DNA of 64,000 bases from the NCBI RefSeq assembly GCF_009707465.1, contig NZ_CP046120.1, positions 3,563,501 through 3,627,500 on the forward strand. Direction: 5' to 3'. Source of the DNA: Novosphingobium sp. Gsoil 351. Lineage in GTDB: Bacteria; Pseudomonadota; Alphaproteobacteria; Sphingomonadales; Sphingomonadaceae. The position numbers were made by a program, and so were the translations under genes. The notes beneath the pieces were generated by a model. The model did not search any database and was not told where the DNA came from. It saw only the letters and a program-made list of their open reading frames with translations. Of the stretch, positions 3,575 through 32,356 are shown one piece after another (the stretch's first letter is position 1; each line of letters opens with the position of its first letter).

Positions 3575-3610
3575 AAGGTTGAACTTTGCCTCCGGCCCCG
3601 CCATATGCCG

Positions 3611-3702
3611 CGCCGGGAGTCGGGCGGACGCTTGCGGCCGCCAACCTGGTCAGGTCCGGAAGGAAGCAGCCACAACGGTTTGCGGCGGGTCGCCCGGCTC
3701 CT
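3611..3702 (+). ncRNA. ffs: Signal recognition particle RNA (4.5S-type)
   Basis: The universally conserved SRP domain IV core GGTCAGGTCCGGAAGGAAGC lies at 3648-3667, with GCAGCCA completing the asymmetric loop and tetraloop that bind Ffh. The flanks pair over a long helix: GCCGGGAG at the 5' side with the CCCGGC at the 3' side, giving a short bacterial SRP RNA of about 92 nt. A T-rich CTTTTATT directly follows the 3' arm and could end transcription. The protein partners Ffh (47.4 kb) and FtsY (42.6 kb) are in the same window. Ends are set by the helix and may be off by a few bases. Confidence 0.93.
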
Positions 3703-3745
3703 TTTATTCCTGACATTCGCCCGGCGAGTGCCTACCCTTAGACCC

Positions 3746-5443
3746 ATGGGTGATTCCCCCGACATCTTCGGCAATGAACCGGCGGACGAGGCAGAAATGC
3801 CCGGCCTTGGCCTCGACCAGCCGGCTCAGCCGCAACCGGCCCAGCCCTATCGCGTCCTCGCTCGCAAGTACCGTCCGCAGACCTTTTCCGAGCTGATCGG
3901 CCAGGAACCGATGGTCCGCACGCTGGGCAACGCGATCCGGCGCGAACGGCTGGCGCATGCGTTCTTGATGACCGGGGTGCGCGGCGTGGGCAAGACCAGC
4001 ACCGCGCGGCTGATCGCCAAGGCACTGAACTGCATCGGGCCCGACGGGCAGGGCGGACCCACGATCGATCCCTGCGGAACTTGCGAGCCGTGCCGCGCGA
4101 TTGCGGAAGGGCGCCACATCGACGTGATCGAGATGGATGCCGCCTCGCATAACGGGATCGACGACGTTCGCGCGATGACCGACGCGGTGCGCTATGCGGC
4201 AGTCACCGCGCGGTACAAGATCTATATCATCGACGAAGTCCACATGATGTCGAAGCCAGCCTTCAACGCGCTTCTGAAGACGCTCGAGGAGCCGCCCGCG
4301 CACGTCAAGTTCCTGTTCGCGACGACCGAGGTCGATAAACTGCCGATCACCGTGCTCAGCCGCTGCCAGCGGTTCGATCTGCGCCGGATCACCACACCCA
4401 TGCTGACCGAACACTTCGCGCGGATATGCGCTGCGGAGAAGGTCGAGGCCGATGACGAGGCGCTGGCGCTGATCGCGGCGGCCGCCGAAGGCTCGGTGCG
4501 TGATGGTTTGTCGATCCTCGATCAGGCGATCGCCCATGCAGACCTGGAAGGCGAGGCCGTGGTCACCGCCGCCAAGGTCCGTGAGATGCTCGGGCTTGCC
4601 GACAAGACTGTCCAGCGGCGCCTGTTCGCGACAATCCTTAGGGGCGAGGGCAAGGCGCTGCTCGATCTGGTCGCCGAGCAATATGCGCTGGGCATCGAGC
4701 CGTTGGCGCTGATCCGCGCGCAGATGGATCTCGTCCACCGGATCACCGTCGCCCAGCTTGGCGAGAGCGGCGCGCAGGGCGCGACCGCGGAAGAGCGTGC
4801 AGCGCTCGAAGGCTGGGCCGGGCAATTGTCCGCCGGGCAACTTCATCGTCTTTGGCAACTGCTGCTCAAGGGCCACGGCGAAATCGTCAGCGCGCCCGAT
4901 CCACTTGCGGCTGCCCAGATGGCGCTGCTGCGCGTGCTCCATGCCGCAGATCTTCCCGATCCCGGACAATTGGCGAAAAAGCTTGAGGAGATGGCGGCGC
5001 GCAGTCCCGTCCCGGCACCCGCCGCCGGTCGTACCGCGTCCGCCGAACCGGTTGCCGCGCTTGACTGGACCGCGTTGGTCGAGCGGATAGAAACCGCAAG
5101 GCCGCTGGTTGGTGGCGTAATGCGCAACTGGATTCGCCCGGTGGACGTCTCGCATGGCGTCCTGCGATTCCAGATCGACGCCGACTACCGGGCCGAGGAC
5201 CCCGCCGCCGACATTCGCAAGGCGCTGGAGGAGGTCACCCGCGAGCGCTGGCAGGTCGAACGCGGGGTCGGCGACGCGCAGCCCAGCTTGCGCGAGCGGG
5301 CTGAGGCCGAGGCCACCGCGGCGCAGGCCGCGCTGCTCGCCGATCCGCTGGTCAAGGCCGCCTTCGCCGCCTTTCCCGATGCCCAATTGGTCGACGACGA
5401 GCGCGCCTCGCCCGGCCGCACCCCATGGAGTCGCAGCGCATGA
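3746..5443 (+). CDS. dnaX: DNA polymerase III subunit tau/gamma
   Basis: Clamp-loader ATPase that loads the sliding clamp and couples polymerases at the fork. Residues 77-84 form Walker A (GVRGVGKT). The zinc module has Cys96, Cys110, Cys113 and Cys116. Walker B is DEVHMM and the SRC arginine-finger motif lies in LSRCQRFD. AAA+ domains I-III run to about residue 405, then an Ala/Pro-rich linker and a tau-type C-terminal part. Total length 565 residues. I chose ATG 3746 because upstream sequence is the SRP RNA gene. The stop overlaps the ybaB start. A possible frameshift signal at 4975-5026 is described in the findings. Confidence 0.95.
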   Translation: MGDSPDIFGNEPADEAEMPGLGLDQPAQPQPAQPYRVLARKYRPQTFSELIGQEPMVRTLGNAIRRERLAHAFLMTGVRGVGKTSTARLIAKALNCIGPDGQGGPTIDPCGTCEPCRAIAEGRHIDVIEMDAASHNGIDDVRAMTDAVRYAAVTARYKIYIIDEVHMMSKPAFNALLKTLEEPPAHVKFLFATTEVDKLPITVLSRCQRFDLRRITTPMLTEHFARICAAEKVEADDEALALIAAAAEGSVRDGLSILDQAIAHADLEGEAVVTAAKVREMLGLADKTVQRRLFATILRGEGKALLDLVAEQYALGIEPLALIRAQMDLVHRITVAQLGESGAQGATAEERAALEGWAGQLSAGQLHRLWQLLLKGHGEIVSAPDPLAAAQMALLRVLHAADLPDPGQLAKKLEEMAARSPVPAPAAGRTASAEPVAALDWTALVERIETARPLVGGVMRNWIRPVDVSHGVLRFQIDADYRAEDPAADIRKALEEVTRERWQVERGVGDAQPSLRERAEAEATAAQAALLADPLVKAAFAAFPDAQLVDDERASPGRTPWSRSA

Positions 5444-16910: not shown

Positions 16911-17465
16911 ATGAAGTACGACCGGGCCGATCTCGAACGCCGGATGAAGGGCGCGGTCGAGGCGCTGCGTCATGATCTGGCCGGGCTGCGCACGGGCCGC
17001 GCCAACGTCGGGCTGCTCGATCCGATCATGGTGACGGTCTATGGCTCGTCGATGCCGCTCAACCAGGTCGCGACCGTCTCCGCGCCCGAACCGCGGATGC
17101 TGTCGGTGCAGGTGTGGGACAAGTCGAACGTGGGCCCGGTGGAAAAGGCGATCCGCTCGGCAGGGCTGGGGCTGAACCCGATCAACGATGGCCAGATGCT
17201 GCGTCTGCCGATCCCCGACCTGACCGAGGAGCGTCGCAAGGAACTTGCGAAGTTGGCGCATCAATACGCTGAAAAAGCTCGGATCGCGATCCGAAACGTC
17301 CGCCGCGACGGGATGGACAATCTCAAGACCGACGAGAAGAAGCACGAGATTTCGGAAGACGAGCGCAAGCGCGCGGAAACCGAAGTCCAGAAACTGACCG
17401 ACGAGCAGATCAAGGCCGCCGACGACGTCGCCGCGCACAAGGAAAAGGAAATTCTCGGGCAGTGA
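16911..17465 (+). CDS. frr: Ribosome recycling factor
   Basis: Splits post-termination ribosomes with EF-G. The 184-residue protein shows the family pattern: [14 protein letters not shown] for the tip of the long helical bundle, the small domain starting [10 protein letters not shown], and [11 protein letters not shown] near the end. The ATG has GGAG about eight bases upstream. Directly upstream, after pyrH, lies a second ATG giving MAKYGVSS and a stop; it resembles the usual MAKYD start of sphingomonad Frr, as though the start had been duplicated. The stop overlaps the GTG of uppS. Confidence 0.95.
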
Positions 17466-18247
17466 TCCTGCGGGCACCCAAACGCCCGCTCATGTCGAGC
17501 GAAGTCGAGACACATGCTCTGGCCGGGCGCGTCTCGCCTTCCCACGACACCAGCGGGCCGGGGTCAGGCAAGGGGGCTCAAGCCCGGCACGTCGCGATCA
17601 TCATGGACGGCAACGGGCGCTGGGCGAAGAAGCGCCACCTGCCGCGCGCGGTGGGCCACAAGCGCGGGGTCGACGCGGTGCGCGAGGTCGCCCGCGCGGC
17701 GCGCACGATGGGGCTCGAGGCGCTGACCCTCTACGCCTTCAGCACCGAGAACTGGCGGCGTCCGGAAGACGAGATCGGCGCGCTGATGGGGCTGCTCAAG
17801 AGCTTCATCGTCAGCGATCTCGACGAGTTCGCCGCGAACAACGTCCGGCTCAAGATTATCGGCGATTACAAGGCGTTCGCCCCCGATATTGTCGCGATGG
17901 TCGAGAATGCGCTGGCGCGCACCGCGGGCAACGACGGCACCACCCTGGTGGTCGCACTCAACTATGGCTCGCAGGCCGAGATCGCCAACGCCGCGGCGCG
18001 CGCGGCGGCCAAGGGCGCAATCACGCCGGAGAGCATCGAAGCCGAGCTCGACACCGCCGACCTGCCCCCGCTCGACCTGCTGATCCGCACTTCGGGCGAG
18101 GTCCGGCTGTCGAACTTCCTGCTGTGGCAGGCCGCCTACGCCGAGATGTGGTTCACCGAGGTGCTCTGGCCCGATTTCAAGCCCGCGCATCTGCAGGAGG
18201 CGCTCGACGCCTTTGCCCGGCGGGAGCGGCGCTATGGCGGGCGGTGA
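17462..18247 (+). CDS. uppS: Di-trans,poly-cis-polyprenyl diphosphate synthase
   Basis: Makes undecaprenyl diphosphate, the lipid carrier for peptidoglycan and polysaccharides. The catalytic Asp49 is in IIMDGNGRW, followed by GHKRG and the FSTENW substrate motif; the C-terminal [15 protein letters not shown] is typical. From GTG 17462 (GTGA overlap with frr) the protein has 261 residues, about 20 more before the catalytic Asp than usual. The extra residues come from a palindromic repeat lying in frame (MSSEVETHA). ATG 17492 within the repeat is an alternative start. Confidence 0.94.
17487..17556. repeat. Palindromic repeat, SSEVET type, inside uppS
   Basis: The left arm TGTCGAGCGAAGTCGAGACA is exact to the family core; a degenerate right arm (GTCTCG...CACGACACCAGCGGG) follows. 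The element lies wholly in the 5' coding part of uppS and brings an ATG of its own. Confidence 0.75.
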
Positions 18248-28715: not shown

Positions 28716-29363
28716 CTAGCCCCACACCCGTTCGCGATACCACTTCGTGATCACGTACTTCACCCCCTTGCGCACCTTCATCCCGTGATGGAGCGTCGCC
28801 GGGTTCAGCGAGCCGTCGGCGCGGCGGTTGTTCCACGCCAGCAGCTTTCCGGTTTCGGGCTGGACGGTCTTGTCGATCACCTTGAACCGCGTCGCGCCGC
28901 CGGCTTCGGGCTGGTTGAGATAGAGCATCACCGTCCAGGTGCGGTTGCCCGCGACCGAGCAGAACTTGGTGAAGTCGGCGCCGTTGGGCTCGAAATAGTC
29001 GGTGTGGCCTTTGAACTCCTGCCCCACCGCATAGCGCTGGCCCTGCAGCGGCTCGCCATAGGCGGGATCGATGCCGCTCCACGCGCTGAGCAAGGCATCG
29101 AGCCCGGCGATCTCGGGCATCGAGGCATCGAGGTCGCACGTCTCGCTGGTGCGGAAATAGTGGTCGCCGTTGGGGTCGGCGATGGTCGAGGGGCGGCGGT
29201 TGGCGTCGATCAGCCCGCACAGCCGCGTGCAGAACGCAGGGTCGAGGAATTGCTTGACGATATACAGTTCGAGCCTGGGATTGGGCACGCGCTGGACGCC
29301 CGGATTGCTCAGTATGCGCTGCGCGGTGGTATCGGGCGAAAGGGTGGCGTAAGCGCTGGCCAT
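28716..29363 (-). CDS. Prolyl 4-hydroxylase-like 2OG-Fe(II) oxygenase
   Basis: A 215-residue dioxygenase. Iron ligands are His120 and Asp122 (GHTDYF) and His192, with Lys202 ten residues later for the 2-oxoglutarate carboxylate; the spacing equals that of eukaryotic collagen prolyl 4-hydroxylases. FEPN and WTVMLYLN are family patterns. The protein substrate is unknown. It is divergent from the pseudopilin genes with 18 bases between the starts, which may be chance. Confidence 0.9.
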   Translation of the reverse strand: MASAYATLSPDTTAQRILSNPGVQRVPNPRLELYIVKQFLDPAFCTRLCGLIDANRRPSTIADPNGDHYFRTSETCDLDASMPEIAGLDALLSAWSGIDPAYGEPLQGQRYAVGQEFKGHTDYFEPNGADFTKFCSVAGNRTWTVMLYLNQPEAGGATRFKVIDKTVQPETGKLLAWNNRRADGSLNPATLHHGMKVRKGVKYVITKWYRERVWG

Positions 29364-29381
29364 GGCGCGGATGCTATCGTG

Positions 29382-30002
29382 ATGGAGCGGCTTTTGTCAC
29401 CACCCTCCGCGCGTTCCAAGCCACGACCACCTCCCTCCGCTCGTCCCGAGCGAAGTCGAGGGACCAGCTCAAAATCCCTCGACTTCGCTCGGGATGAGCG
29501 GAACAGGAGGGCAAGTCAGGCGGGTTTCAGCCTGGTCGAGATGATGGTCGTGCTGTTCGTCTTGGGGCTGCTGGCGGCGGTGGTGGTGCTGTCGCTGCCC
29601 GGCGATGCGCGGGTGCTGCGCGACGAGGCCGAACGGTTCGCCGCGCGCACCGTGGCGGCGCGCGACGAGGCGATTTCGGGGGCGCGGCCGGTGGCGGTGG
29701 TGGTCGGGACGGCCGGGTACTACTTCGAACAGCGCCGCGACGGCGGCTGGCAGCCGCTCGATCCCGGGCGCTTCGGGCTGGTCGCGTGGAAGGACGGCAC
29801 CGCGGCTAGCGTTTCCGGAGCCTCATCCGAACCAGGAGGGGGCGAGGGCGGGCAGCCCGGCGCCGCGCCCGAGCGCCAGCGGCTGGTGTTCGATCCTGTC
29901 GGGCTGGCGGGCAGCGAGGCGCGGGTCCGGCTGGCACGCGGCAAGGACGCGCTGGCCGTGAGCGTGGCGCGCGATGGCACGGTCAAGCTCGATGCGGGGT
30001 GA
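29382..30002 (+). CDS. gspH: Type II secretion minor pseudopilin GspH
   Basis: Prepilin-like protein. The cleavage site is Gly-Phe in QAGFSLVEMMVV with Glu at mature position 5, then a hydrophobic helix. The mature part contains a GRFGLVAWK region and a Gly-rich SEPGGGEGG loop. From the ATG used, the leader is 48 residues, far longer than the usual 6-20, and half of it is translated palindromic repeat. I find no nearer in-frame start codon. First gene of gspHIJK; other gsp genes are not in the window. Confidence 0.85.
   Translation: MERLLSPPSARSKPRPPPSARPERSRGTSSKSLDFARDERNRRASQAGFSLVEMMVVLFVLGLLAAVVVLSLPGDARVLRDEAERFAARTVAARDEAISGARPVAVVVGTAGYYFEQRRDGGWQPLDPGRFGLVAWKDGTAASVSGASSEPGGGEGGQPGAAPERQRLVFDPVGLAGSEARVRLARGKDALAVSVARDGTVKLDAG
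29437..29501. repeat. Palindromic repeat, SSEVET-type variant, in the gspH leader
   Basis: Arms CCCGAGCGAAGTCGAGGG and CCCTCGACTTCGCTCGGG are exact reverse complements across a spacer of about a dozen bases. The element lies in frame between the gspH start and its cleavage site, with an AGGAGG just after it. Confidence 0.88.
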
Positions 30003-30474
30003 TCGCGCCAAATCACAACCCCGCTCATGTCGAGCGAAGTCGAGACATCCCGCGCCGCGCGAGCGTGTCTCGACTTCGCTCGACACGAGCGGACGTGGGT
30101 GCAAGGCCAAGCGAAACGGCTTCACCCTGATCGAGCTGATGGTCGCGCTGGCGGTCTTCGCCATCGCCGCGTTGACCCTGCTGCGAATGGAAGGCGCGAG
30201 CATCGGCCGCACCGCCGATCTCGACCAGCGGCTGCTGCGCGAGGTAGTCGCGCAAAACCTCGCCGCCGAATGGCTGACCGATCCCACGCCGCCGGCGCTG
30301 GGCGACACCACCGGCCAGACCGCCAACCTGGGGCGCCAGTTCGCCTACACCCGCCATGTCGAGACGATGTCCGACGCCGGGGTGATCCGCGTGGTCGTCG
30401 CGGTGCGTGAAGTGACCCCCGGCGCGCCGAGCCAGGCGTTCACGCTGGAATTCATGCGTCAGGGTGGGGCGTGA
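29992..30474 (+). CDS. gspI: Type II secretion minor pseudopilin GspI
   Basis: Cleavage site KRNG-FTLIELMVAL with Glu5, followed by the membrane helix and a small globular part of the GspI type (NLAAEWLTDP, then VREVTPGAPSQAF). The ATG overlaps the end of gspH by 11 bases; an ATG six codons earlier is possible. The leader is 43 residues and contains a full palindromic repeat. No closer in-frame start is visible. Expected to form the pseudopilus tip with GspJ and GspK. Confidence 0.85.
   Translation: MRGDRAKSQPRSCRAKSRHPAPRERVSTSLDTSGRGCKAKRNGFTLIELMVALAVFAIAALTLLRMEGASIGRTADLDQRLLREVVAQNLAAEWLTDPTPPALGDTTGQTANLGRQFAYTRHVETMSDAGVIRVVVAVREVTPGAPSQAFTLEFMRQGGA
30021..30092. repeat. Palindromic repeat, SSEVET type, in the gspI leader
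   Basis: Left arm TGTCGAGCGAAGTCGAGACA and right arm TGTCTCGACTTCGCTCGACA are exact reverse complements with about 15 bases between. This is the clearest copy of the family in the window and lies wholly within the gspI leader codons. Confidence 0.92.
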
Positions 30475-31208
30475 TGGGGCGGGTGCGCTTCAGGGTCCTC
30501 CCCTGCAAGGGGAGGTCGCAGCCCTCTTGGGCTGACGGAGGGGTGACGACGCTGGCGGAGACACCCCTCCCTCAGCGCATTCGCGCTGCCACCTCCCCCG
30601 CGGGGGGAGGATCGACGACAGTAAACGGCTTCACCCTGGTCGAAATGCTCATCGCGCTGGCGATCTTCGCGGTGATCGCGGGCGGCGCGCTGATGCTGCT
30701 GCAGTTCAGCGTCGAGGCCGAGGCGGCGAGCCGGACCAAGACCCAGCAGATCGCCGCGATGCGCCGCTTTCTCAGCGTGTGGAACGCCGATCTCGCCCAG
30801 GCGGTGCCGCGCCCGTCGCGCGATGCGGGCGGCGCTGCCGGGGCCGCGATCGAGGCCCCGACCGGCGCGCCCGACGGGGTGATCCTGCGCCTCACCCGCG
30901 GCGGGTGGAGCAATTACGACGGCGCGGCGCGGCCCAGCCTCCAGCGCGTCGAATACCGCTGGCAGGGCGGGAAGATCGCGCGCGCGGGCTATCCGTTCCT
31001 CGACGGCGCGCGCGCCGATGCCGCGGCGCCGCTCGCCGATTCCGCCGGCCCGCCGCGGCTGCGCTTCCGCACCAGCGACGGCAACTGGCGCGACCGCTGG
31101 GAACCCCAGCGCAGCGGCGAGCTGCCGGTGGCGATCGAGCTCAACCTGCCCCAGGCGGGCGGGCAGGCGCTACGCGTGGTGGCGCTGGTCGGGGCGAACT
31201 ACCAGTGA
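30474..31208 (+). CDS. gspJ: Type II secretion minor pseudopilin GspJ
   Basis: Cleavage site VNG-FTLVEMLIAL with Glu5. The mature part has the GspJ-like QIAAMRRFLSVWNADLAQ, then LRLTRGGWSN and RVEYRW. The ATG sits in the gspI stop (TGATG). The leader is 52 residues, of which about 40 come from a CTCCCC-type repeat that keeps an open frame. Stop overlaps the gspK start. Confidence 0.86.
   Translation: MGRVRFRVLPCKGRSQPSWADGGVTTLAETPLPQRIRAATSPAGGGSTTVNGFTLVEMLIALAIFAVIAGGALMLLQFSVEAEAASRTKTQQIAAMRRFLSVWNADLAQAVPRPSRDAGGAAGAAIEAPTGAPDGVILRLTRGGWSNYDGAARPSLQRVEYRWQGGKIARAGYPFLDGARADAAAPLADSAGPPRLRFRTSDGNWRDRWEPQRSGELPVAIELNLPQAGGQALRVVALVGANYQ
30494..30612. repeat. Palindromic repeat, CTCCCCTGCAAGGGGAG type, in the gspJ leader
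   Basis: Starts TCCTCCCCTGCAAGGGGAGG and ends CTCCCCCGCGGGGGGAGGAT, with inner arms GGAGGGGTG and CACCCCTCC. Same family as the copy at 26.0 kb. It lies in frame between the gspJ start and the prepilin cleavage site. Confidence 0.9.
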
Positions 31209-32194
31209 GGCGCTTTCCCGACCGCGAACGCGGGGCCGCGCTCCTCTCGGTCCTGCTCCTCGTCGCGGTGATGGCGGTGATCGCCGCGATCATGCTCGAG
31301 CGGCTCAACCTCGCCACGCGGCTGGCCGCGAACAGCCAGGCAATGACCCAGGCGCGGTTCTATGCGTTGTCGGCCGAGAGCATCGCCACCGCGCGGATCA
31401 AGGCGCTGGTGACGGCCAGCCCCGATCGCACCGCCGATCCGCAGGGCCTGCTGGGCCGCGATTTCAACATGCCGCTGGCCGCCGGGCTGGTGGTCGCGCG
31501 AGTCGACGATGCCGGCAACTGCTTCAACCTCAACTCGCTGGTCGAAGGGCAAGATGGCAGCTTCAGCTTGCGCCCCACCGGCCTCGCCCAGCTTCGCGCG
31601 CTGATGGAGGGACTGGCGATCCCCGCGGGCGAGGCGATCCCCCTGTCCGATGGGATGGCCGACTGGATCGACAGCGACGACATCCCCGCGCCCAACGGCA
31701 GCGAAGACGCCTATTACCAGGCGCTGCCGGTGCCCTATCGCACCGCCGGGCGGCTGATCGTCGATCCCGGCGAGATGCGCGCGGTCAAGGGCATGACGCC
31801 CGCCTACTACGCCCGCCTGCGGCCGTGGCTCTGCGCGCTGCCGGGCAACGAACTGTCGCCGATCAACGTCAACACGATCCGTCCCGATCAGGCCAGGCTG
31901 ATCGCCATGCTCAGCCCGGCGACGATTCCGATCCAGCGCGCCCAGTCGATCATCGCCCAGCGTCCGCCGGGCGGGGTCGCCGCCGCCGCCGATTTCCTCC
32001 GCCCGTTCGCCGCGGGCGGGCACACGCTGGGGCCCGAACCGATGGGCCAGCTCAAGGTCACCAGCCGGTGGTTCCTGATCGACCTGCAGGTGGCGGTCGA
32101 TTCGATCCGGCTCGACGAGCAGGCGCTGGTCGATGTCGGGGTCGATCCGCCGCGGGTGGTCGGCCGCAGCTGGGGCGACCGGGAAAGCCGGTGA
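31205..32194 (+). CDS. gspK: Type II secretion protein GspK
   Basis: Large pseudopilin that caps the pseudopilus. It starts at GTG in the gspJ stop (GTGA). The leader is a normal ten residues (RRFPDRERG), cleavage before AALLSVLLLV, and it lacks Glu5, as known for GspK. The body contains the family regions with LNLNSLVEGQ-like NCFNLNSL, MADWIDSDD with acidic Ca-site residues, INVNT and the C-terminal saposin-like region. 329 residues. It ends the operon; gspL and gspM do not follow. Confidence 0.9.
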   Translation: MRRFPDRERGAALLSVLLLVAVMAVIAAIMLERLNLATRLAANSQAMTQARFYALSAESIATARIKALVTASPDRTADPQGLLGRDFNMPLAAGLVVARVDDAGNCFNLNSLVEGQDGSFSLRPTGLAQLRALMEGLAIPAGEAIPLSDGMADWIDSDDIPAPNGSEDAYYQALPVPYRTAGRLIVDPGEMRAVKGMTPAYYARLRPWLCALPGNELSPINVNTIRPDQARLIAMLSPATIPIQRAQSIIAQRPPGGVAAAADFLRPFAAGGHTLGPEPMGQLKVTSRWFLIDLQVAVDSIRLDEQALVDVGVDPPRVVGRSWGDRESR

Positions 32195-32356
32195 TTTTCC
32201 GGGCGCGTAATATTGTTGCGCGCGGGCGCGGGCGCCGCAACTTTCGCTTTGCTTCGGACGCACCTTGTGCAATGGCGCGGCCCCGTTCCAATCGCTGCTT
32301 GACGGCGGGGAACGCGCCCGCAAAAGCGCCCGCTTCTGGCGGGTGTGCCGGGATAT

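Follow-up and report, generated by a model that had tools for sequence, protein, structure and literature searches.

The locus described here raises the question of why three consecutive minor pseudopilin genes of a type II secretion system, gspH, gspI and gspJ, carry palindromic repeats between the start codon and the prepilin cleavage site, and what becomes of these repeats when the genes are expressed. The genes lie in a 64,000-nucleotide stretch of DNA from Novosphingobium sp. Gsoil 351, which is referred to as the window, where they form a tight operon with gspK. The genes and repeats are as follows, with leaders counted in residues to the glycine at the cleavage site, Gly(-1).

28716..29363, minus strand: 2OG-Fe(II) oxygenase gene (PF13640), the upstream neighbour of gspH and divergent from it
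29394..30002, plus strand: gspH, minor pseudopilin; likely start TTG 29394, leader of 44 (alternative start ATG 29382, chosen in the first-pass annotation, leader of 48; Gly(-1) codon 29523-29525)
29992..30474, plus strand: gspI, minor pseudopilin (PF02501, TIGR01707); leader of 43 from ATG 29992
30474..31208, plus strand: gspJ, minor pseudopilin (PF11612, TIGR01711); leader of 52 from its ATG
31205..32194, plus strand: gspK, minor pseudopilin (NF037980); the translation has a 10-residue leader without a repeat
29436..29502, no strand: SSEVET-type palindromic repeat in the leader of gspH; the whole leader RNA folds at -76.2 kcal/mol (z -9.6)
30021..30092, no strand: SSEVET-type palindromic repeat in the leader of gspI; the whole leader RNA folds at -69.6 kcal/mol (z -8.1)
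about 30495..30614, no strand: CTCCCC-type palindromic repeat in the leader of gspJ; the whole leader RNA folds at -95.3 kcal/mol (z -5.9)

Gene Assignments and Genomic Setting

Gene identities were determined by profile searches with Pfam and NCBIfam. GspI and GspJ score above the cut-offs of PF02501 and TIGR01707 and of PF11612 and TIGR01711, respectively. GspH is above cut-off for PF12019 and N_methyl, and TIGR01708 falls below its own cut-off there (61.8 vs 80 bits). PF07963, which covers the cleavage motif and the hydrophobic stretch, is above cut-off in GspH, GspI and GspJ, and also in gspG. The assembly is one contig of 3,818,329 bases, in which gspC, D, E, F, G, L, M and N form a single cluster at C1:865113-873981; GspC and GspE are below the NCBIfam cut-offs and above those of Pfam. 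With H, I, J and K, all twelve of these type II secretion genes are present. An Rfam scan of the window at gathering scores returned two tRNAs and the SRP RNA and nothing else. Named relatives of GspJ are mostly Novosphingobium among the 120 homologues listed of 463 found, and the DNA upstream of gspH is similar, by eye, in two of the nearest same-genus relatives, G163 and G038.

Start Sites and Open Leaders

The first-pass annotation had placed an in-frame dispersed repeat between start and cleavage site in each of gspH, gspI and gspJ, and this is borne out, as all three frames are open across their repeats. The leader lengths given there, 48 (ATG 29382), 43 (ATG 29992) and 52 residues (ATG 30474) against ten in the repeat-free gspK, are also correct. 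The accompanying statement that there is no nearer in-frame start has to be withdrawn, because gspH has TTG 29394 and gspJ has GTG 30543, which lies inside the CTCCCC repeat and would give a leader of 29 residues. Neither gspH nor gspI has an ATG, GTG or TTG downstream of the repeat. The start of gspH is probably TTG 29394, still upstream of the repeat; the ATG-TCA start of the relatives aligns by eye with TTG-TCA at this position, and a GGAG lies 6 nt upstream. The start codons did not line up cleanly in a MAFFT alignment of the region upstream of gspH, and the case for this TTG is therefore a reading of the sequences.

The other two starts are tied to the preceding gene. ATG 29992 of gspI falls within the end of gspH, whose stop is at 30000-30002, and the gspI start has the same position in G163 and G038, where the leader is free of repeats. 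The GTG-ATG of gspJ at 30471/30474 overlaps the gspI stop, and this GTGATG is identical in G163. These shared positions put the starts in the window upstream of the repeats.

Repeat Elements and Their Dispersal

The gspH repeat has arms at 29436-29463 and 29475-29502 and the gspI repeat, which belongs to another SSEVET subtype, at 30021-30047 and 30066-30092; the arms are 96% complementary in each. The claim that both repeat types are dispersed was confirmed. A search with the 17-nt SSEVET core, allowing up to 2 mismatches, found 111 half-copies in the genome vs 2 for the reversed pattern, and the CTCCCC element gave 22 BLAST matches at 13 genome sites (merged by eye). In the stretches read, the half-copies and a related second subtype merge into 82 SSEVET elements, a figure that is inexact because the second subtype was searched in those stretches only and seven weak core hits were unlisted. 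A few of the SSEVET hits are ordinary coding sequence that matches by chance; at least two, in trpD-like and ligase-like genes, look to be of this kind. With a simple codon-based gene caller written for the purpose, 84 of 95 elements overlap no called gene. The gspH and gspI copies are among these 84, since their leader codons do not look like coding sequence. In this genome the SSEVET and CTCCCC elements are thus mostly intergenic and REP-like. Further elements lie between gspD and gspE and after gspN.

Related elements occur on plasmids. A near-mode plasmid search with 29300-32250 gave no match; in distant mode, 9 plasmids of Sphingomonas or Sphingobium were found to carry the CTCCCC element and 2 of Sphingobium the SSEVET element. 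The one Y1_Tnp gene, at C1:1289721-1290077, was considered as a mobiliser of the window repeats, and this is unsupported: the single 28-nt inverted repeat beside it is unlike them.

Some elements touch other genes. In uppS (PF01255; window 17462-18247, plus strand) an SSEVET element precedes the conserved start region; the called frame begins at a GTG and includes the element, and no methionine lies between the element and a particular 13-residue stretch of the protein. A half element, TARVERSRD, is in frame near residue 504 of a gene for an ABC-F-like ATPase (by eye) at G000:C1:3557374-3559162 on the minus strand. Another SSEVET element is in frame near residue 159 of a gene at G000:C1:2816781-2817738 on the plus strand, presumably truB-like. 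REPs are described in truB of other species in the available part of PMC3733652.

Same-Genus Relatives and Nearest Homologues

GspI matched in 39 of the 195 same-genus genomes searched, and 30 loci, including that of the genome itself, were read. Both repeat cores are absent from the operon stretch in all 29 relatives read, and leaders there are short, mostly about 5-27 residues at these genes. G163 (GspI 85%) has leaders of 19 (H), 8 (I) and 7 (J) residues, and G038 has 11, 13 and 5. The comparison with relatives that lack the repeat, which had been proposed as a check, supports the idea of a tolerated landing site: their leaders are short, and in G163 gspI and gspJ start at the same place. 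The mature subunits G, H, I and J are under purifying selection, with dN/dS values against G163 of 0.07/0.30 (gspG), 0.07/0.56 (gspH), 0.09/0.46 (gspI) and 0.05/0.50 (gspJ).

Among the 120 GspJ homologues listed of the 463 found, 115 show the cleavage motif. Five of them (P0001, P0002, P0004, P0006 and P0011), from uncultured kin, have leaders of 43-54 residues that by eye derive from the CTCCCC element; all five are among the eleven nearest, where close kin have 5-15 residues. One listed GspI, P0121, has a 39-residue leader with a different repeat-like peptide.

Three different pseudopilin genes (L046 gspH, L047 gspI, and H, I and J proteins from metagenomes) have leaders whose last residues are FPAREGG or similar, perhaps through exchange between paralogues. 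This piece, found in gspH of G163 and gspI of G038, was rejected as a dispersed repeat; its DNA, searched as 16 nt with up to 1 mismatch, occurs once in each of these two genomes, of which G038 is 68% complete, and not at all in the genome of the window. The gspI of L070 has a 27-residue leader of tandem PIRA units.

Reading Frame of Long Leaders in the Sphingomonadaceae

A GspI alignment was searched in 397 family genomes, of which 193 matched. The 116 loci used (30 same-genus, plus 26 and 60 from the family) are the best-scoring matches, with lower-scoring ones, 15 distant loci from a named-genome GspI scan and a second GspI copy in G332 set aside; the junction was obtained for 115 of the 116. 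A leader was called long when the gap was at least 50 nt.

At the gspI-gspJ junction, 33 of 105 gaps are long and come from 14 genera. Every one of the 33 is in phase 2 and has an open pilin frame, with a start close to the gspI stop; of the short gaps, 71 of 72 are in phase 2. The chance of 33 of 33 in phase is (1/3)^33 = 2e-16. Genomes within a genus are not independent; one event per genus, with genus labels from the 397-genome search, gives (1/3)^14 = 2e-7. The gspH-gspI junction is long in 20 of 95 loci, and all 20 have an in-frame start at the end of gspH. Here 19 long gaps are in phase 1 and one in phase 2, compared to 66 and 9 of the short gaps. Long gaps between gspG-like and gspH-like genes are in phase 1 in 16 of 17 cases; in five further long gaps, where the gene assignment is unclear, the phases are 1, 2, 2, 1 and 0.

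The open frame was also counted directly. Of the 71 long leaders (77 long-leader rows less six of unclear assignment), none has a stop in the pilin frame, whereas 31 and 24 have one in the other two frames. L231, one of the six excluded, contains stops, and a start lies near its cleavage site. Charge and hydropathy showed no preference for the pilin frame (mean charge 2.8 vs 3.9 and 6.1), so that selection is visible in the frame alone. Among long leaders, 20 of the 33 in gspJ and 8 of the 20 in gspI contain a start within 25 residues, and the other 13 and 12 do not. Of the 77 long leaders, 40 fold at z <= -2.

The leaders that share this frame differ in content, when sorted by peptide patterns whose names and definitions are those of this analysis. 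The 33 long gspJ leaders comprise 13 tandem duplications, 7 of PAQAG/RGND or APAFAG type, 4 SSEVET-like, 2 CTCCCC-like, 2 SLSKGR/SARTE and 5 others. The tandem unit is 33 nt or 11 residues long and copies the cleavage-site sequence (RSAEHGFTPV); such leaders mostly fold more weakly. In several genera (L216, L223, L252, L267 and others) the 33-nt units copy the Gly-Phe region without the hydrophobic stretch. Dispersal was checked for SSEVET and CTCCCC in the genome of the window and for SLSKGR/SARTE in genus g43, two genomes of which carry the latter in gspJ; the G482 leader matches its own genome 30 times and G236 67 times, with both strands of the palindrome counted. CGTC-headed palindromes are present in two genes, gspG (G038, G009 and G028) and gspJ (two g2 genomes). 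By eye, CGTC heads are seen in leaders L169, L176, L177, L217 and L221, with a CCA tail in L169, L176 and L177.

Equally long leaders without a repeat, which the first-pass annotation had named as a finding against it, do exist in part, since 13 of the 33 long gspJ leaders are tandem duplications and not dispersed repeats. The tandem duplications are taken to widen the idea of tolerance rather than to refute it. One phase and an open frame are kept despite differing content in 33 of 33 leaders, and therefore, from sequence evidence, the repeats are most likely translated and then presumably removed by the prepilin peptidase.

gspG and gspK

A search of the genome for the N-methylation motif found four genes, gspG, gspH, gspI and gspJ. 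The first of these, 2.7 Mb from the window, carries a CTCCCC element downstream of the gspF stop and before its cleavage site, so the list of three genes given originally stands for gspH, gspI and gspJ and was incomplete without gspG. All four N_methyl prepilins found thus carry a repeat. The chance of this is about 2-5e-7 under a uniform draw of 95 elements, a value that depends on independence, on the approximate number of elements and on a gene-junction count assumed to be 3600-4500. In this gspG, the frame that opens with the ATGs at the gspF stop ends within the repeat; the pilin frame has a single start, a GTG that also lies in the repeat, 13 bases after that stop, like GTG 30543 in gspJ. 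A restart at this GTG, slippage or a sequence error are possible. Among the 30 same-genus gspG loci read (58 of 195 genomes match), the F-G gap is at least 100 nt in six; five of these are open from the gspF stop, and the gspG of this genome is not.

The gspK gene also starts at the stop of its upstream gene, gspJ. It was examined in 106 loci and not found in 2. Leaders of at least 30 residues occur in 1 of 104 gspK genes, compared to 25 of 105 for gspJ and 14 of 95 for gspI (Fisher p = 2e-7 and 2e-4, respectively), and leaders of at least 18 residues in 4, 33 and 22. The leaders of gspK are almost never expanded, so the argument that the leader is cleaved and therefore free to vary is not sufficient. 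The sole gspK leader of at least 30 residues, 50 in L269, contains a repeat-like peptide (SLSKC..QTQPE) in frame from a GTG at the gspJ stop.

Proposed Origin and Fate of the Leader Repeats

The explanation that is judged likely as a whole is that the pseudopilin leader of the Sphingomonadaceae, before Gly-1/Phe+1, is a permissive, translated landing pad. REP-like palindromes from several families would enter between the start at the upstream gene's stop and the cleavage site, as would local tandem duplications in other genera. We infer that ribosomes start upstream and read through, that only in-frame, stop-free insertions survive, that the inserts are neutral and that a mobile REP machinery inserted the repeats. 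The added residues, about 25-47 in the window genes, would stay cytoplasmic, and the prepilin peptidase would cut off the insert with the leader and leave the mature subunit unchanged. The earlier suggestion of a tolerated landing site is strongly supported by the 29 repeat-free relatives, the other repeats at the same site and the 33/33 and 20/20 frames. Tolerated, translated and removable insertions are adopted as the main explanation, which does not account for the excess of repeats at these genes or for the sparing of gspK and which the gspG of this genome, with its closed frame, does not fit; as gspK is spared, pure tolerance is not the whole account.

The repeats could instead be regulatory, with each hairpin setting translation or mRNA stability of its subunit and being kept by selection. 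The stable hairpins of the three window leaders (z -5.9 to -9.6) and the many folding leaders in the family are consistent with this, as are the repeats in four of four prepilins, above the expectation from element density, and the sparing of gspK; REPs are also discussed as post-transcriptional elements in the accessible part of PMC3733652. However, element family, size and position vary between genes and sister species, these repeats are absent from H, I and J of the 29 same-genus relatives, and the 13 tandem-unit gspJ leaders mostly fold more weakly; regulation is a rather unlikely reading. In a bolder and slightly less probable form, class III leaders would be a family-wide, actively used expansion site on which unrelated REP families and tandem duplications converge in G, H, I and J and hardly in K, with hairpins kept to tune subunit amounts. 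If so, a mobile repeat would have been turned into a removable, translated regulatory leader.

That translation begins inside or after the repeat, so that the repeats would be ordinary intergenic REPs and the long leaders annotation artefacts, is improbable. The 84 elements that overlap no called gene, with the gspH and gspI copies among them, would fit, and so would GTG 30543 and the only usable gspG start, both within CTCCCC repeats; the available part of PMC3733652 suspects late starts for most N-terminal REPs of three species. Under this reading, however, neither the 33/33 frame-lock nor the 0/71 leaders with pilin-frame stops would be expected, gspH and gspI have no start codon after the repeat, and 13 long gspJ and 12 long gspI leaders lack one within 25 residues; N-terminal RPE-1 copies of R. 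conorii proteins are, moreover, expressed, according to the same source. An insertion machinery that prefers sequence near the conserved cleavage-site DNA would account for the hits in four of four prepilins at two unlinked loci and for insertion upstream of the same motif in several genera, but several unrelated element families use the site, and such target choice is marginally less credible than late starts. Least probable is a decaying type II system in which repeats accumulate without counter-selection. The gspG frame does close from its expected start, and the gspD-gspE gap and the stretch after gspN hold elements too, but the C to G, H to K and L to N genes are all present, dN of the mature G, H, I and J is well below dS, and the frame is kept in H, I and J. 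The gspK contrast poses a testable question about that subunit.

Comparison with Known Systems

As in the class III signal peptides of type IV filament pilins, the leaders end in Gly-1, which is followed by Phe+1, Glu+5 and a hydrophobic stretch. Those of Streptococcus sanguinis have 8-18 residues in the available part of PMC6497953, compared to 43-52 here and up to about 63 in relatives. This suggests that a type II system can work with prepilin leaders of 40-60 residues, which bears on start annotation and on models of prepilin insertion. Leaders of this kind are a coding-sequence site where selection seems to see the frame alone, and so a natural record of which insertions arrive and survive. 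No report of repeats in pseudopilin leaders is among the open-access literature matches listed, which is weak evidence of novelty, and no mention of sphingomonads was found in the available part of PMC12306157.

The CGTC REP superfamily of the alpha-Proteobacteria has a CGTC head, an 8-9 bp stem and a CCA tail, and its elements are mostly intergenic elsewhere, as far as the accessible text of PMC3733652 goes. By eye, some of the relatives' leaders show such a head and tail; the likeness is to those leaders, and the SSEVET and CTCCCC elements of the window are not assigned to the superfamily. Where the same text considers most N-terminal REPs of three species to be probably untranslated, the frame-lock described here argues for translation, and provides evidence that REPs at gene starts, which the literature consulted tends to discount, can be translated. 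In-frame fusions of bacterial MITEs, in the available part of PMC10969869, likewise have a non-autonomous repeat that gives coding sequence, although the peptide contributed here is probably discarded.

The nearest precedent for the leader repeats is the Rickettsia palindromic elements (RPEs), which, in the available parts of PMC10969869 and PMC3733652, are likewise short palindromic repeats in frame in genes that still work, and whose N-terminal RPE-1 copies are reported to be expressed in R. conorii (PMC3733652). RPEs occur in unrelated genes and add to the product, whereas the repeats described here are concentrated in a leader that is expected to be cut off, and, unlike RPEs, several unrelated element families share the site.
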